NCBI GenBank assembly: GCA_913059105.1
Contig: CAJXRL010000002.1
Coordinates: 1 to 43,065 of the forward strand
Reading direction: 5' to 3'
Length of the DNA stretch: 43,065 nt
From: an uncultured Flavobacteriales bacterium
Lineage (GTDB): Bacteria; Bacteroidota; Bacteroidia; Flavobacteriales_E; Vicingaceae
The notes beneath the pieces were generated by a model that saw nothing but the letters and a program-made list of their open reading frames with translations, was not told the DNA's origin and searched no databases. The translations under genes and the position numbers were made by a program. This document shows, one piece after another, positions 338-7,505 of the stretch. How positions within the stretch are numbered: position 1 is the first letter of the stretch; every line of letters starts with the position of its first letter.

Positions 338-1045
338 CTAATCAATCAGGTCTGCCAATACCACTAGACCGTGGACATCTAATAAGCGGATCTTTTTACC
401 TTCTAAGGCAATTAATTTCTCCTTTTTAAACTCTGACAACAAACGAATAACAGCCTCCGTTGCTGTACCTACCATATTTGCAATCTCTTCGCGACTTAGC
501 TGTACATCAATACAATCATCGTCATCTAAACCAAAAGTTTCTTTGAGCCACAGTAACATCTCCGCTAATCTTTCTTTTGTCGTTTTTTGAGCCATATCGG
601 TAATTAAACGAGAGGCTTCATTCCAGTTCTTTGCCGTTAACTCCAACATTTTTAAGCTAAACTTTGGTTCAGCTTTTATCATTTCAAAAAACTGCTCGGC
701 TGGTATAAAACAAATCGCAGCATCTTCTAGAGCAACTGCTGTAGAGCCCAATGGTCTTTTACTCAACATAGAATTATAGCCCATTACATCGCCATCTGTG
801 GCAAAACGAACAATTTGCTCTTTTCCAGAGGGGCCCATTTTGCTCATTTTTACTTTACCTTTACTAACGCAATACAAACCTCTAGAGTAATTTCCTTCGC
901 TAAAAACAATCTCTCCTTTGCTAAAAAAGTCACACCCTTTGTGATCGTTTATCTCTTCTAGTTAATTGGAATCTAACGAGCAAAAAACAGACTTGTGCCG
1001 AGCTCCGCAGGTAGCACAAGAAGGAGTTGGTAGTTTTTGGCTCAT
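338..1045 (-). pseudogene. Crp/Fnr-family transcriptional regulator with an in-frame TAA at codon 28 (or a sequence error)
   Basis: The downstream 179-aa ORF has cNMP-type beta-roll and HTH sequence (LSREEIANMVGTATEAVIRLLSEF). The same frame continues upstream to ATG 1045: MSQKLPTPSCATCGARHKSVFCSLDSN*LEEINDHKGCDFFSKGEIVFSEGNYSRGLYCVSKGKV. Stop at 964-962. Confidence 0.85.
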
Positions 1046-1049
1046 ATAC

Positions 1050-1061
1050 TGACAAATATCA
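1050..1061. promoter_or_regulatory. Putative Fnr/Crp-type box TGACAAATATCA upstream of ccoI
   Basis: TGAC-N4-ATCA near-palindrome, 35 nt upstream of the weak -7-like element GAATTTCG (1085-1092) and 42 nt before the ccoI ATG (1103). Confidence 0.55.
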
Positions 1062-1102
1062 TACTTTGTCTTCAATATAAAAAGGAATTTCGAAGATTCA
1101 TA

Positions 1103-3505
1103 ATGAAAGATAATCAATCAAAAAACACACAAGAAAAAGTATGTTATCACTGCGGTGATGAGTGTGTTGATGAGCAAATTGTTTTGGAAGGAAAACTCTT
1201 CTGCTGTAACGGTTGCCAAACTGTTTTTGAAATTTTGTCTCAAAACGAAATGTGCAACTACTATGAGTTAGAAAACATGCCGGGAATCAGCATGAAATCA
1301 AAAAAGCAAGCACGATTCGAATATTTAAGCCAAGGGGATGTAATTGAAAAATTAATTGACTTTCAAGACGAAAATATTTATACCGTTCAATTTTATCTTC
1401 CTCAAATTCACTGTAGCGCATGTTTGTGGTTACTTGAAAATCTATACAAATTACATGAAGGAATAAATAGTAGCAGGGTGAACTTTCTTAAAAAAGAAAT
1501 TTATATCACCTTCGAACATCAAAAACTAAGTTTAAAAGAGTTGGTTGAGTTGCTTGCCAGTTTAGGTTATGAGCCTAAAATCACCCTTAATCAGCTTGAT
1601 GATCAAAAGAGAAAACCCATTCGTAGAAAGCTGATGTATCAGGTTGGTTTAGCGGGTTTTGCTTTTGGCAACATCATGCTGATGAGTTTACCTGAATATT
1701 TTGGGCTAGACGCTGACAGTTTTGAGAAATTTAGACCCTGGTTTACCTGGATCAACCTTGCCATAGCAACTCCAGTTGCTTTTTACAGTGGTCAAGATTA
1801 TTTTATGTCGGCCTGGAAAAGCATTCGAATAAAACGCCTTAACATAGACATTCCTATTGCTCTAGGCGTATTAGTGTTATATATAAGAAGCTTTTACGAA
1901 GTAGTTACTCAAACAGGCTCGGGTTATTTCGATTCTCTTTGCGGTCTTTTATTCTTTTTGCTATTGGGTCGAATTTTCCAAGAAAAGATTTACCATCAAT
2001 TGTCCTTTGAAAGAGATTATCGCTCTTACTTCCCTATTTCTGTAACCAAGCTCACTGAAGGAAAAGAATCAGACATTCCTATTAATGATGTAAAAAAAGG
2101 GGATAAAATTATAATTAGAAACGGCGAGTTGATTCCAGTTGACGCATATTTAATAAAAGGTCAAGCAAGGATTGACAACAGTTTCGCAACTGGTGAGTCT
2201 GCTCCAGTGCACAAAGAGCTTGGCGATAAAATTTATGCCGGTGGACGACAAGTTGGAGAAGCCGTCCAATTAGAAGTAATACAACCGCTAAACCAAAGCA
2301 AGATTACCAGATTATGGAATGAATATTCTGACAAAGAAAAGAGTACTGCAACTTTTTCTGTTATGACGGATAAAATTTCTCAATGGTTCACCCCTATCAT
2401 TCTTTTAATTGCTATTGCTGCAGGTGTCTTTCATTTAAGCTCAGGCCTAGGAAAAAGTGTTGAAGTTATTTGCGCTGTGCTTATTGTTGCTTGCCCCTGC
2501 GCATTAGCGCTGGCGGCCCCTTTCACCTTTGGGCATGCCACGAGATGGTTGGGAAAGCAAAACTGCTATTTACGAGAGGCTGCTGTTATTGAACAAATGG
2601 CTAAAATAGACGCTATCGTTTTTGACAAAACAGGAACGCTTACAGTTAACAACCAAGGGAAAGTATACTATGATGGAGCTACTTTAACATTGTATATTAA
2701 AGAGCATCTCTACAGTTTAGTACACCAAAGTACCCACCCTTTAAGCAGGTTGATAAAAGTTTATTTGGGTGAGCAAAAAAGCCATCCTGCTAAAGAATTT
2801 CAAGAGTTAGAAGGAAAGGGAATTAAAGGAAAAGTAGGCAAAACTGAGTATCGCCTTGGCTCGTCTAATTGGATTTTAAACAACACCAAAAGACAAGACC
2901 AAACACAAGTCCTGTTGGAAATGGACGGAGTTGTATTTGGTACGTTTAGTTTTGAAAACGAATACCGGCCCGGTTTAGGAAGTCTAGTAAAGAATCTGGC
3001 TAAAAACTACTCAATGAGTTTAGTTTCTGGAGACAATGAAGGGCAGAGAGCAAACTTAGAAAAACTATTCCCTGAAGGGACCCAACTATTATTTAATCAA
3101 AGCCCAAAAGACAAACTAGAGGTCATTAAAGCGCTGAACAATCAAAACCTTAATACCATGATGGTAGGTGATGGTTTGAACGATGCCGGAGCATTAAGAG
3201 AAGCCTTTGTTGGAGTTTCTATAGCTGAAGATGTAACCGCTTTCTCTCCTGCTTGCGATGTAATTATTGGAGGAGACCGATTTCAACACTTGAACCGCTT
3301 CGTTGCGTTTGCAAAAAGCAGTAAAAACATTGTGATTGTGAGCTTTATCATCTCCTTTCTATACAATATTTTTGGATTAAGTTTCGCCGTTCAAGGCCAG
3401 CTTTCTCCGGTTTTTGCAGCTATATTAATGCCCATTAGCTCAGTAACCGTGGTAGGTTTTGTAAGTCTGGCAGTCTGGTTAAAGTCAAGAAACATTCGCA
3501 ATTAA
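1103..3505 (+). CDS. ccoI: Heavy-metal-transporting P-type ATPase CcoI/FixI (cbb3 oxidase copper supply)
   Basis: N-terminal CCNGC and HCSAC metal-binding motifs, CPC transmembrane motif (VACPCALAL), DKTGTLT and GDGLNDAGAL motifs. Start moved from 1037 to ATG 1103. Confidence 0.93.
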   Translation: MKDNQSKNTQEKVCYHCGDECVDEQIVLEGKLFCCNGCQTVFEILSQNEMCNYYELENMPGISMKSKKQARFEYLSQGDVIEKLIDFQDENIYTVQFYLPQIHCSACLWLLENLYKLHEGINSSRVNFLKKEIYITFEHQKLSLKELVELLASLGYEPKITLNQLDDQKRKPIRRKLMYQVGLAGFAFGNIMLMSLPEYFGLDADSFEKFRPWFTWINLAIATPVAFYSGQDYFMSAWKSIRIKRLNIDIPIALGVLVLYIRSFYEVVTQTGSGYFDSLCGLLFFLLLGRIFQEKIYHQLSFERDYRSYFPISVTKLTEGKESDIPINDVKKGDKIIIRNGELIPVDAYLIKGQARIDNSFATGESAPVHKELGDKIYAGGRQVGEAVQLEVIQPLNQSKITRLWNEYSDKEKSTATFSVMTDKISQWFTPIILLIAIAAGVFHLSSGLGKSVEVICAVLIVACPCALALAAPFTFGHATRWLGKQNCYLREAAVIEQMAKIDAIVFDKTGTLTVNNQGKVYYDGATLTLYIKEHLYSLVHQSTHPLSRLIKVYLGEQKSHPAKEFQELEGKGIKGKVGKTEYRLGSSNWILNNTKRQDQTQVLLEMDGVVFGTFSFENEYRPGLGSLVKNLAKNYSMSLVSGDNEGQRANLEKLFPEGTQLLFNQSPKDKLEVIKALNNQNLNTMMVGDGLNDAGALREAFVGVSIAEDVTAFSPACDVIIGGDRFQHLNRFVAFAKSSKNIVIVSFIISFLYNIFGLSFAVQGQLSPVFAAILMPISSVTVVGFVSLAVWLKSRNIRN

Positions 3506-3522
3506 AACTTAGCCTATTCCCT

Positions 3523-4329
3523 CTATTTTTCTGGCAAGACTAACATTGGTAAATGAAAGTGCATAATTGCTTTTTTACTATCACTTCTTTTCATTAAACG
3601 ATCCCAAAAAGATTTCTTCCGGCTTACTAAAACCAAGAGCGAATTCAAGTCGGCTATTTCACTTCTCAGCCCTTCTTCAAAGGTATCAGAAAATGCTTCG
3701 TATAGTGAGATGTGATGATCGTTAAAACGGTCTTCAATTTCCCCCCAATTTTGCATCGGCTGGTCCGCTTTTGTACGAACGTGAAATAAACTAATCGGTA
3801 ACTTAAACGCACGAGATAGCACACCAACAAAAGAAATTGTATTCTCTGTTAGCCCTTTACCGTCGTAACTTAATAGAATGTTTTGGATGTTTTTACATCT
3901 ATATTCTTGCGGAATTGCAAAAACAGGGACAGTAGCGTCATCTATCAAATTTGATGCATTGCTCCCAAGCAAGACTTCTTTCATACCAGACGCTCCTTTG
4001 GTTCCCATTACCACAAAATCTGCTTTTTTATCGTGAGACAGGCCTGTTATTTGATCAGAAAATCCCCCCTGTAAAACTGCACTTTCTGAAGTTGCATGAA
4101 TTTTTGGAAATTTATCCTTCAAGACAAACATAAATTTCTCCATTTCCTCAAATGACTGCTTACGCAGTTGTTCCATCAAAGAAAATAAACTACTCGTTCC
4201 TCCTCTTGGTATATCATAAACAGTAGCTACAATGTATTTAAAATTCTCCCCAGTAAAAAAATCGTTCGTGAATTCAAATGCTTTTAAAGAGTTCTCAGAA
4301 AAATCTGTAGGTATAATTATAGTCTTCAT
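3523..4329 (-). CDS. Universal stress protein with tandem UspA domains
   Basis: MKTIIIPTDFSENSLKAFEF start; VVMGTKGASGMKEVLLGSNASNLID nucleotide-binding loop; a second, more degenerate Usp half. Confidence 0.9.
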   Translation of the reverse strand: MKTIIIPTDFSENSLKAFEFTNDFFTGENFKYIVATVYDIPRGGTSSLFSLMEQLRKQSFEEMEKFMFVLKDKFPKIHATSESAVLQGGFSDQITGLSHDKKADFVVMGTKGASGMKEVLLGSNASNLIDDATVPVFAIPQEYRCKNIQNILLSYDGKGLTENTISFVGVLSRAFKLPISLFHVRTKADQPMQNWGEIEDRFNDHHISLYEAFSDTFEEGLRSEIADLNSLLVLVSRKKSFWDRLMKRSDSKKAIMHFHLPMLVLPEK

Positions 4330-4376
4330 ATAAATAATATTTATTCAAATATCGAACATCTATCCTAATTATCATA

Positions 4377-4388
4377 TGACAATTATCA
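4377..4388. promoter_or_regulatory. Putative Fnr/Crp-type box TGACAATTATCA between usp and the CDO-like gene
   Basis: 35 nt upstream of a perfect TAnnTTTG (TAACTTTG, 4412-4419) on +. On - it is also 35 nt from GATATTTG (4353-4346). Confidence 0.65.
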
Positions 4389-4411
4389 TTTTAATACGAC
4401 AATTCGCGGCA

Positions 4412-4419
4412 TAACTTTG
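4412..4419 (+). promoter_or_regulatory. Bacteroidota-type -7 element TAACTTTG for the CDO-like gene
   Basis: Matches TAnnTTTG; 30 nt before the ATG at 4449. Confidence 0.5.
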
Positions 4420-4448
4420 ATTCAAGAATCAATTTAACATTAATATCC

Positions 4449-4985
4449 ATGGTATTCCCAAAAATTACAACTATTCCGCAACTTAATCGAAACCTAAATT
4501 TGGGCGCAGGCCATGGAGGGTATAATGAATTGTTTGCAGCCATTGAGCTTCCAAAAACAGAATGGGGAAACTACTGCACTTGGAAAGATAGCAGGTACAC
4601 TAGAAACTGCATCTCTTCTTGCGAAGAATACGAATTGCTTCTAATGTGCTGGGGTAAAAATCATAAATCTCCCGTTCACAATTATTCATTTCAACAAGGC
4701 TGGATCAAAGTATTGGAAGGCGAACTCACTATCCAGCGTTACGAAATGGACCGCGAAGAGCTTTGCTGCCATAAAAAAGAAATGTTAAGCATAAAAGCTG
4801 GGGAGTCCACCTATCTAAATGATAATATGGGATTTCATGAAGTTTTCAATACAAATGAAGGGAATACGATAAGTCTTCATTTAACGATTGAAAAAGTTAC
4901 CAACTGGGAAGTTTTTAGGGCTTGTCGACAAGAAACAATTAAAGTTAAACCACTCTTAGATTCTAAAAGCCCCGATTGCGAATAG
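4449..4985 (+). CDS. Cysteine dioxygenase (type I)-like cupin protein
   Basis: RYTRN...YELLLMCWGKNHKSPVHNYSFQQGWIKVLEGELTIQRY resembles the CDO core, with GFHEV and ISLHL downstream. Confidence 0.8.
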   Translation: MVFPKITTIPQLNRNLNLGAGHGGYNELFAAIELPKTEWGNYCTWKDSRYTRNCISSCEEYELLLMCWGKNHKSPVHNYSFQQGWIKVLEGELTIQRYEMDREELCCHKKEMLSIKAGESTYLNDNMGFHEVFNTNEGNTISLHLTIEKVTNWEVFRACRQETIKVKPLLDSKSPDCE

Positions 4986-5100
4986 CCGTTGTTTCGCGAT
5001 GTCTTTCAGCAACTTGCAAATATTTTTTACTCCAATTATTGTATTTAAACGTTAAAATATAATTTTTAGCACCTTATAAATTGAAAAGTTTTTAGAAAAC

Positions 5101-5112
5101 TGATAATTATCA
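5101..5112. promoter_or_regulatory. Putative Fnr box TGATAATTATCA (perfect palindrome) upstream of ccoS
   Basis: TGAT-N4-ATCA core of the Fnr consensus, 35 nt upstream of -7-like CATCTTTA (5136-5143) and 59 nt from the ccoS ATG. Confidence 0.7.
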
Positions 5113-5159
5113 TTTTTTAACACGCTCAACTCCGACATCTTTACAAAAATTTTCAATTC

Positions 5160-5342
5160 ATGAGTGTCCTCATTTTATTAATTCTCGCAAGCCTAGTGGT
5201 TGCACTTGGTTTCTTAATTGCCTTTTTCTGGTCAGTTAAGTCAGGTCAATATGAAGATGATTATACGCCATCTGTGAGAATGTTATTTGACGACACCAAG
5301 CCAACTCCTAAAAAAACGGAAGAAAAAGAAATAAACAAATAG
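5160..5342 (+). CDS. ccoS: cbb3-type cytochrome oxidase assembly protein CcoS
   Basis: Short single-TM protein, SGQYEDDYTPSVRMLFDD, directly before ccoNO. Confidence 0.9.
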   Translation: MSVLILLILASLVVALGFLIAFFWSVKSGQYEDDYTPSVRMLFDDTKPTPKKTEEKEINK

Positions 5343-5345
5343 AAA

Positions 5346-7505
5346 ATGGAAATAGAAAAATTCAAATATGACAATAACATCGTCCGGATGTTTGGGAATG
5401 CGACCATTTTGTGGGGAGCAATAGGCATGCTGGTGGGACTTTTAGTCGCCTTTCAATTTATATTCCCTTCGCTAAGCTTTATGGAGTATGTTTCCTTCGG
5501 AAGAGTTAGACCGCTGCATACCAATGCAGTGATTTTTGCATTTGTTGGCAACGGTATTTTCACTGGCGTATACTACTCCCTGCAGCGCTTGCTAAAAACA
5601 AGAATGTACAGTGATTTACTATCCAAAATTAATTTTTGGGGCTGGCAAGCCATTATTGTTTCAGCTGTTGTTACTTTACCATTGGGAATTACAACTTCAA
5701 AAGAATACGCTGAATTAGAGTGGCCAATTGATATTGCCATTACTATTATTTGGGTTGTTTTTGGTTGGAATTTATTTGCAACAATTCTTAAAAGAAGGGA
5801 AAGACATTTATATGTAGCTGTTTGGTTTTACATTGCCACATTTGTAACGGTTGCAGTTCTTCATTTGGTAAATTCATTTGAATTACCAATTAGCTTCACT
5901 AAAAGTTATTCCTGGTATGCTGGCGTTCAAGATGCTTTAGTTCAATGGTGGTACGGACACAATGCTGTTGCATTTTTCTTAACCACTCCGTACTTAGGAT
6001 TAATGTACTATTTTGTCCCAAAAGCAGCGAACAGACCTGTATTTTCCTACCGATTATCGATTATTCATTTCTGGGCCTTGATTTTCTTATACATCTGGGC
6101 CGGTCCTCACCATTTATTATATACCGCCTTGCCTGATTGGGCGCAATCTTTAGGGGTTGTATTTAGTATCATGCTAATTGCTCCTTCTTGGGGTGGCATG
6201 ATTAACGGACTATTAACATTAAGAGGTGCTTGGGATAAAGTTCGTGACAACGTGGTATTGAAATTTATGGTTGTTGCCATTACCGCTTATGGTATGTCAA
6301 CTTTTGAAGGTCCAATGTTATCGCTTAAAAACGTAAACGCAATTGCTCACTTTACAGATTGGATTGTGGCTCACGTTCATGTTGGAGCTTTGGGTTGGAA
6401 CGGTTTCTTAACCTTCGGTATGTTGTACTATTTATGGCCAATAATGTTCAACACTAAACTATACTCGAAAAAATTGGCCAACATACATTTCTGGATCGGC
6501 ACTTTAGGAATCTTATTTTATGCAATTCCATTGTATTGGGCAGGTTTCGTGCAAAGTCAAATGTGGAACGATTTTACAAATGAAGGTTTCTTAAAGTATC
6601 CAAACTTCTTAGAAACGGTTACCAACATTATCCCGATGTATGCATACAGAGCGGTTGGAGGATTATTATACTACATAGGTGTACTTGTAATGATTGTTAA
6701 CCTTATTAAAACTGCAAAATCTGGGGTATTTGTTGCGGATGAACCAGCCGAAGCGGCTCCAATTAAACCAATTGGAAAGAACTACCAAGATGAGCACTGG
6801 CATAGATTTCTGGAAAGAAAGCCTACGTTAATGTTGATCGGGTCATTGGTGGTGATTTCAATAGGAGGAATCATTGAAATGGTACCAACCTTCTTGGTAG
6901 ATTCTAACATTCCAACCATTAAAAGTGTGAAACCATACACCCCTCTTGAATTACATGGTAGAGATGTTTATATCTCTGAAGGTTGTAATAATTGTCATAG
7001 TCAGATGGTTCGCCCTTTCCGTTCTGAAACAGAACGTTACGGAGAATACTCTAAAGCAGGAGAGTTTGTCTACGATCATCCACACTTGTGGGGTTCTAAA
7101 CGCACAGGACCAGATTTGGCAAGAGAAGGAAGTAGCAAGTTGAGAAAACCAAACTCTTGGCATTTCAAGCACATGTATGATCCAAGATCGCTTTCTCCGC
7201 AATCTATCATGCCAGCTTATCCGTGGTTGTTGGATAACACGTACGACACCTCGATGACGGCTGCTAAAATTAACGCCATGATAACTTTGGGTGTTCCTTA
7301 CGATGAGGCACCATATGGCGACAACTATGCTGCAAGAGCCAACGAAGATGTTATAAAACAAGCCAACGAAATTGTGGAAGACATGAGGGCTGTTTTGGAA
7401 GAAGATGGCTTTGATGTAGAAGCAGACAAAGAAATTATTGCCTTGATTGCCTACCTACAGCGTTTGGGTGTAGACATTGAAAAAGGTCAAACCGTTAAAA
7501 AATAA
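5346..7505 (+). CDS. ccoNO: cbb3-type cytochrome c oxidase subunits I and II fused (CcoN-CcoO)
   Basis: Heme-copper oxidase core (GHNAVAFFLTTPYLGLMYYFVPK, HFTDWIVAHVHVGALGWNGF) followed in frame by a CcoO domain with a GCNNCHSQMVRPFRSE heme c motif. Confidence 0.95.
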   Translation: MEIEKFKYDNNIVRMFGNATILWGAIGMLVGLLVAFQFIFPSLSFMEYVSFGRVRPLHTNAVIFAFVGNGIFTGVYYSLQRLLKTRMYSDLLSKINFWGWQAIIVSAVVTLPLGITTSKEYAELEWPIDIAITIIWVVFGWNLFATILKRRERHLYVAVWFYIATFVTVAVLHLVNSFELPISFTKSYSWYAGVQDALVQWWYGHNAVAFFLTTPYLGLMYYFVPKAANRPVFSYRLSIIHFWALIFLYIWAGPHHLLYTALPDWAQSLGVVFSIMLIAPSWGGMINGLLTLRGAWDKVRDNVVLKFMVVAITAYGMSTFEGPMLSLKNVNAIAHFTDWIVAHVHVGALGWNGFLTFGMLYYLWPIMFNTKLYSKKLANIHFWIGTLGILFYAIPLYWAGFVQSQMWNDFTNEGFLKYPNFLETVTNIIPMYAYRAVGGLLYYIGVLVMIVNLIKTAKSGVFVADEPAEAAPIKPIGKNYQDEHWHRFLERKPTLMLIGSLVVISIGGIIEMVPTFLVDSNIPTIKSVKPYTPLELHGRDVYISEGCNNCHSQMVRPFRSETERYGEYSKAGEFVYDHPHLWGSKRTGPDLAREGSSKLRKPNSWHFKHMYDPRSLSPQSIMPAYPWLLDNTYDTSMTAAKINAMITLGVPYDEAPYGDNYAARANEDVIKQANEIVEDMRAVLEEDGFDVEADKEIIALIAYLQRLGVDIEKGQTVKK

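Follow-up and report, generated by a model that had tools for sequence, protein, structure and literature searches.

Is the cbb3 oxidase cluster of this uncultured Flavobacteriales bacterium controlled as one regulon, and does the Crp/Fnr-family protein encoded beside it act as the activator? The question is raised by three palindromes in the stretch of 43,065 nucleotides analyzed here (the window). The initial annotation matched them to the core of the Fnr consensus and placed a -7-like element at one fixed distance from each. The genes concerned are the following.

338..1045, - strand: fnr, Crp/Fnr-family regulator with cysteines C10, C13, C59, and C112 and an in-frame TAA at codon 28
1103..3505, + strand: ccoI, copper P-type ATPase
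3523..4329, - strand: usp, universal stress protein
4449..4985, + strand: cdo, cysteine dioxygenase type I family
5160..5342, + strand: ccoS (FixS)
5346..7505, + strand: ccoNO fusion, cbb3 oxidase catalytic and mono-haem subunits

The ccoN and ccoO genes are fused in close relatives of the window, whereas some genera of the family have a stop codon separating the two (loci L106-L108 and L112-L114). A strong cbb3 CcoN match was present in the window and in genome G005; none was found in four genomes of the same genus (G001-G004), which may reflect true loss or incompleteness. Positions 1-48 of the window, at the contig start, are Nextera adapter sequence (GTCTCGTGGGCTCGGAGATGTGTATAAGAGACAG, with an index before it). 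Adapter sequence also opens six other contigs read from this genome (C38, C40, C120, C146, C255, and C292), and contig ends in this assembly therefore carry adapters.

Boxes and -7 elements in the window

The palindromes and their candidate promoter elements are as follows.

1050..1061, + strand: box 1, TGACAAATATCA, in the intergenic region of the divergent genes fnr and ccoI; predicted to act as a class II operator for ccoI, and may in addition mediate autoregulation of fnr
1085..1092, + strand: ccoI -7 element, GAATTTCG, degenerate; GA/AA/CAnnTTTG in relatives
4346..4353, - strand: usp -7 element, GATATTTG, at precisely 35 nt from where box 2 starts on the minus strand
4377..4388, no strand assigned: box 2, TGACAATTATCA, common to divergent cdo (+) and usp (-)
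4412..4419, + strand: cdo -7 element, TAACTTTG, from the genome pattern search and family alignment
5101..5112, + strand: box 3, TGATAATTATCA, perfect palindrome; predicted operator of ccoS-NOQP
5136..5143, + strand: ccoS -7 element, CATCTTTA; CAnnTTTG in most relatives

All three palindromes with TGAY-N4-ATCA were found where they had been reported (1050, 4377, and 5101), and the distance of 35 nt from box start to -7-like 8-mer was exact at each. The window held 10 matches to TGAYN4ATCA, compared with a shuffled mean of 3.1, and at least 10 were reached in 2 of 100 shuffles. The -7 elements were uneven in their fixed-base matches to TAnnTTTG: 6/6 for TAACTTTG (cdo), 4/6 for GAATTTCG (ccoI), and 4/6 for CATCTTTA (ccoS). 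The ccoI element had rightly been called weak, but it had been singled out, and ccoS is equally weak. Since a 4/6 match is reached by 9% of positions in the intergenic regions of the three promoters, the spacing called for tests beyond the window; judged from the window alone it is weak evidence, and it becomes strong with the genome-wide and family data given below.

Two features had been overlooked. Box 2 serves the usp direction too: on the minus strand, GATATTTG stands at the same distance of 35 nt, and a locus of the same genus (L143) repeats this two-way cdo/usp arrangement with CACCTTTG. Box 1 is separated from the fnr start codon by 4 bp and overlaps a minus-strand GATATTTG at 1060-1053, which places the predicted fnr start near 1048. 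Because box 1 overlaps this predicted promoter, binding of Fnr would block it, and Fnr probably limits its own synthesis through box 1, at or just ahead of the expected fnr start.

Spacing in the genome, the family, and the class

Pattern searches of the window's own genome with TGAYN4RTCA-N{8-38}-TAnnTTTG allowed 31 possible spacings. N23, which equals the 35-nt spacing, accounted for seven of the 14 box/TAnnTTTG pairs (binomial P=1e-7), so the motif is not randomly spaced genome-wide. When the -7 was relaxed to AnnTTTG with any first base, 11 sites were found at N23 and none with the reversed-pattern control. The genes downstream of these 11 sites include cdo and usp, both in the window, and a fused hemA-hemC gene. 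In the same orientation, hemB is the second gene after this fusion, and the one separating them is a hemD-like candidate. The other targets encode a cytochrome c, PdxH, a UPF0176/rhodanese protein, an MlaE permease, OsmC, an HlyD-type protein, and two unassigned products. By their predicted functions, hemA-hemC with hemB, the cytochrome c, PdxH, and the cbb3 genes fit a low-oxygen regulon.

Family promoters were aligned on the box for ccoI (n=10, window included), ccoS (n=10), and cdo (n=7). The 35-nt spacing was kept in all of them (ccoI 10/10, ccoS 10/10, cdo 7/7), and the -7 read mostly GA/AA/CAnnTTTG at ccoI, CAnnTTTG or CAnnTTTA at ccoS, and TAnnTTTG or TAnnTTTA at cdo. At all three promoters the box, the bases directly 3' of it, and the -7 were conserved, whereas the intervening sequence diverged at constant length. 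Each promoter thus has its own form of -7, mostly GAnnTTTG or AAnnTTTG at ccoI, CAnnTTTG at ccoS, and TAnnTTTG at cdo. Given these conserved forms in relatives, the weak -7 elements of the window are slightly decayed versions of conserved elements, and weak -7 elements would be compatible with activator-dependent promoters.

The layout extends well beyond the family. Across 119 Bacteroidia genomes, 437 sites had N23 and 174 had N45, compared with 60 at the control spacing N34. By row totals, 361 N23 sites fell in 61 genomes of Bacteroidia versus 67 in 186 genomes of other classes of the phylum. Genomes were scored as lacking an Fnr-like protein if they had none at E 1e-25 or better. Genomes with such a protein had 4.4 N23 sites each and those without had 0.48 (P=1e-10, uncorrected for genome size or kinship); the change at the control spacing was far smaller (0.58 versus 0.17), and the N23 excess is lost in genomes that lack the regulator. 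A fixed distance between site and core promoter was thus found in the window's own genome, at cbb3 loci (see below), in the 119 genomes, and in the family alignments. As read from these sequences, the box-to-promoter layout is a real promoter rule of an Fnr-type switch, class-wide in Bacteroidia. The same layout, box-N23-TATTTTTG, precedes a gene that, judged by eye, looks like hemN at L070:16023.

The predicted operator is [AC]TGAY-N4-RTCAT, not the full E. coli FNR site. Of the proposed consensus TTGAT-N4-ATCAA, the core stood, as TGAY-N4-RTCA, but the outer bases did not: the left outer T occurred in 10% of functional sites versus 28% of other boxes, and the right outer A in 7% versus 29%. 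In F. psychrophilum the sigma-A -7 maps to -12 to -5 (PMC9723704). If the -7 occupies these positions here, the box centers at -41.5 from the predicted start, and the spacing is exact and conserved, in agreement with the class II position first suggested. These are most likely class II promoters, with a box at about -41.5, that would be activated by an Fnr-type protein. They resemble E. coli FNR/CRP class II promoters in having a Crp/Fnr dimer site at (here predicted) -41.5, a palindrome with a TGA-N6-TCA core, and genes of respiration as targets. They differ in that the outer T/A are depleted and in that a -7 TAnnTTTG, often with C or G at position 1, replaces the -10 TATAAT. No account of an Fnr operator or motif in Bacteroidia/Bacteroidetes turned up in our full-text literature search, which covered a minority of subscription journals.

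A second architecture emerged from 80 cbb3 loci taken from named genomes. Their spacing histogram had two peaks, N23 with 34 pairs and N45 with 42 pairs, versus 0.28 pairs per other spacing. The N45 promoters are tandem: where a second box would fall, 22 bp further downstream (-41.5), TCA was present in 38/42 and TGA in 21/42. Where the regulator is encoded in the locus itself, a full box at -41.5 accompanies a four-cysteine Fnr, and one at -63.5 accompanies a REC-Crp fusion, which often adjoins a PAS histidine kinase. Genome-wide, the association of -63.5 sites with REC-Crp genomes was weak (P=0.03, uncorrected for kinship); the link looks clearer at cco promoters having the regulator in the locus, and we treat it as a lead only. 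The -63.5 architecture was not enriched in the window's own genome (seven matches versus six control matches over N32-62). In Pedobacter, Persicitalea, and related genomes (L024, L027, L047, L070, and others), PAS kinase/REC-Crp pairs occur close to cbb3 genes, and the promoters there are of the -63.5/-41.5 tandem type.

Candidate regulators of the boxes

The in-frame TAA of fnr (window 962-964) is absent from intact copies in family relatives; it may have arisen very recently or reflect an error in sequencing or assembly. Read through this stop for searches and fold prediction, the product has a Crp/Fnr fold with cNMP-type and Crp helix-turn-helix domains, and Foldseek matches its model (pLDDT 89) to the A. 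fischeri holo-FNR and to 2gau from P. gingivalis. All of 25 Fnr orthologues have the cysteines C10, C13, C59, and C112. They are kept or lost as a set: among 35 sequences, 26 have all four, eight have none, and one paralogue has C112 alone. The invariance of all four suggests that Fnr carries an iron-sulfur cluster, probably an oxygen-labile one.

Compared with the FNR [4Fe-4S] sensors of E. coli and A. fischeri (5E44), the modeled fold is similar (Foldseek TM 0.82-0.84 to holo-FNR). The protein shares with them a C-x2-C near the N-terminus, a cysteine (C112) aligned with the one preceding the IP motif of FNR (E. coli C122), and the recognition-helix Glu and Arg. The E. coli ligand spacing C20-C23-C29-C122 is not reproduced: C10, C13, and C112 match, whereas the third N-terminal cysteine is not conserved and C59, in the beta-roll, is invariant instead. 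In the recognition helix, E197 and R201 are kept and Ile stands where FNR has S212 (E. coli numbering), which, given the DNA contacts of FNR, would fit a lost contact to the outer T.

The proposal of one regulon under an Fnr-family activator was supported at the level of sequence; its assignment to the adjacent protein was borne out in part. Two outcomes named at the outset as contrary to the proposal, random spacing across the genome and a lack of conservation among relatives, were looked for and did not appear. The arrangement fnr-box-ccoI is conserved in the family, but fnr carries the in-frame TAA, and a REC-Crp paralogue has a recognition helix nearly identical to that of Fnr, with the same key residues. 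With fnr interrupted and the helices matching, sequence fits either regulator at these sites. We consider it probable that the boxes are Crp/Fnr-dimer operators near -41.5 that co-activate ccoI, ccoS-NOQP, cdo, and usp, with the neighboring Fnr as the cognate regulator for cco. A Crp/Fnr-family dimer would bind [AC]TGAY-N4-RTCAT centered near -41.5 and recruit sigma-A polymerase to the weak -7 (TA/CA/GAnnTTTG), so that the four transcription units would be switched on together. The signal is likely low oxygen; under oxygen limitation, F. psychrophilum induces cbb3 and haem synthesis (PMC9723704). Fnr is favored for the cco cluster across the family because fnr, ccoI, and the intervening box occur together in 8/8 close-group relatives with fnr beside ccoI (L127, L129-L134, and L143).

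It is possible, though rather unlikely, that the boxes are real class II operators whose working regulator here is the PAS-kinase/REC-Crp phosphorelay paralogue and not the interrupted Fnr. The Crp part of this paralogue (TAPESVIRTLSDF) lies on C40 (L188), and the REC part lies on C146 (L191) with a histidine kinase in which PAS, HisKA, and HATPase domains were found. Adapter sequence stands at both breaks, and the two parts are apparently one gene split over two contigs. Sites of the genome lie beside both parts (three on C40 and one on C146), and genomes with REC-Crp only have as many N23 sites (4.0 per genome) as those with cysteine Fnr only (3.9). Against this reading stand the eight conserved fnr-box-ccoI loci and the uncertain nature of the fnr stop. 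Several universal-stress-type proteins are encoded on C40 as well, together with a second gene of the cysteine dioxygenase family. The pairing recalls FixL-FixJ-FixK control of fixNOQP in Alphaproteobacteria, in which a PAS histidine kinase, a receiver, and a Crp-family activator likewise occur near cbb3 genes; in Bacteroidia, however, receiver and Crp form one protein, and a FixL-like haem-PAS is only putative.

Use of the sites by another Crp/Fnr subfamily, HcpR- or DNR-like and responsive to nitric oxide, is very improbable. HcpR and DNR sites of other phyla share the TGA-N6-TCA core, and HcpR/HcpR2 regulators belong to the Crp/Fnr family and are predicted in Bacteroides of the same phylum (PMC1274295). 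However, the HcpR2 motif predicted for the group including Bacteroides is GTAACnnnnGTTAC, with hcp as the target (PMC1274295), whereas the outer T of FNR, DNR, and HcpR sites is depleted here, the regulon consists of oxygen and haem genes, and the boxes adjoin a four-cysteine Fnr. Chance, by which AT-rich palindromes would have met loose -7 matches in short intergenic regions, could account for two 4/6 elements in the window, but it is refuted by the spacing peaks in genome, family, and class and by the footprints, and its probability is negligible.

A proposed operator grammar in Bacteroidia

Oxygen regulation in Bacteroidia is poorly described. With about even confidence, we propose that the class has its own oxygen-response operator grammar, in which one non-FNR operator would be read by two regulators, a four-cysteine Fnr with a ligand set other than that of E. 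coli and a REC-Crp driven by a PAS kinase, either as a single dimer at -41.5 or in tandem 22 bp apart, at -63.5/-41.5. A further question is how one operator can serve two sensors with different wiring. A strict box-to-promoter rule would make low-oxygen regulons readable from sequence throughout the class, and the operators so predicted testable.
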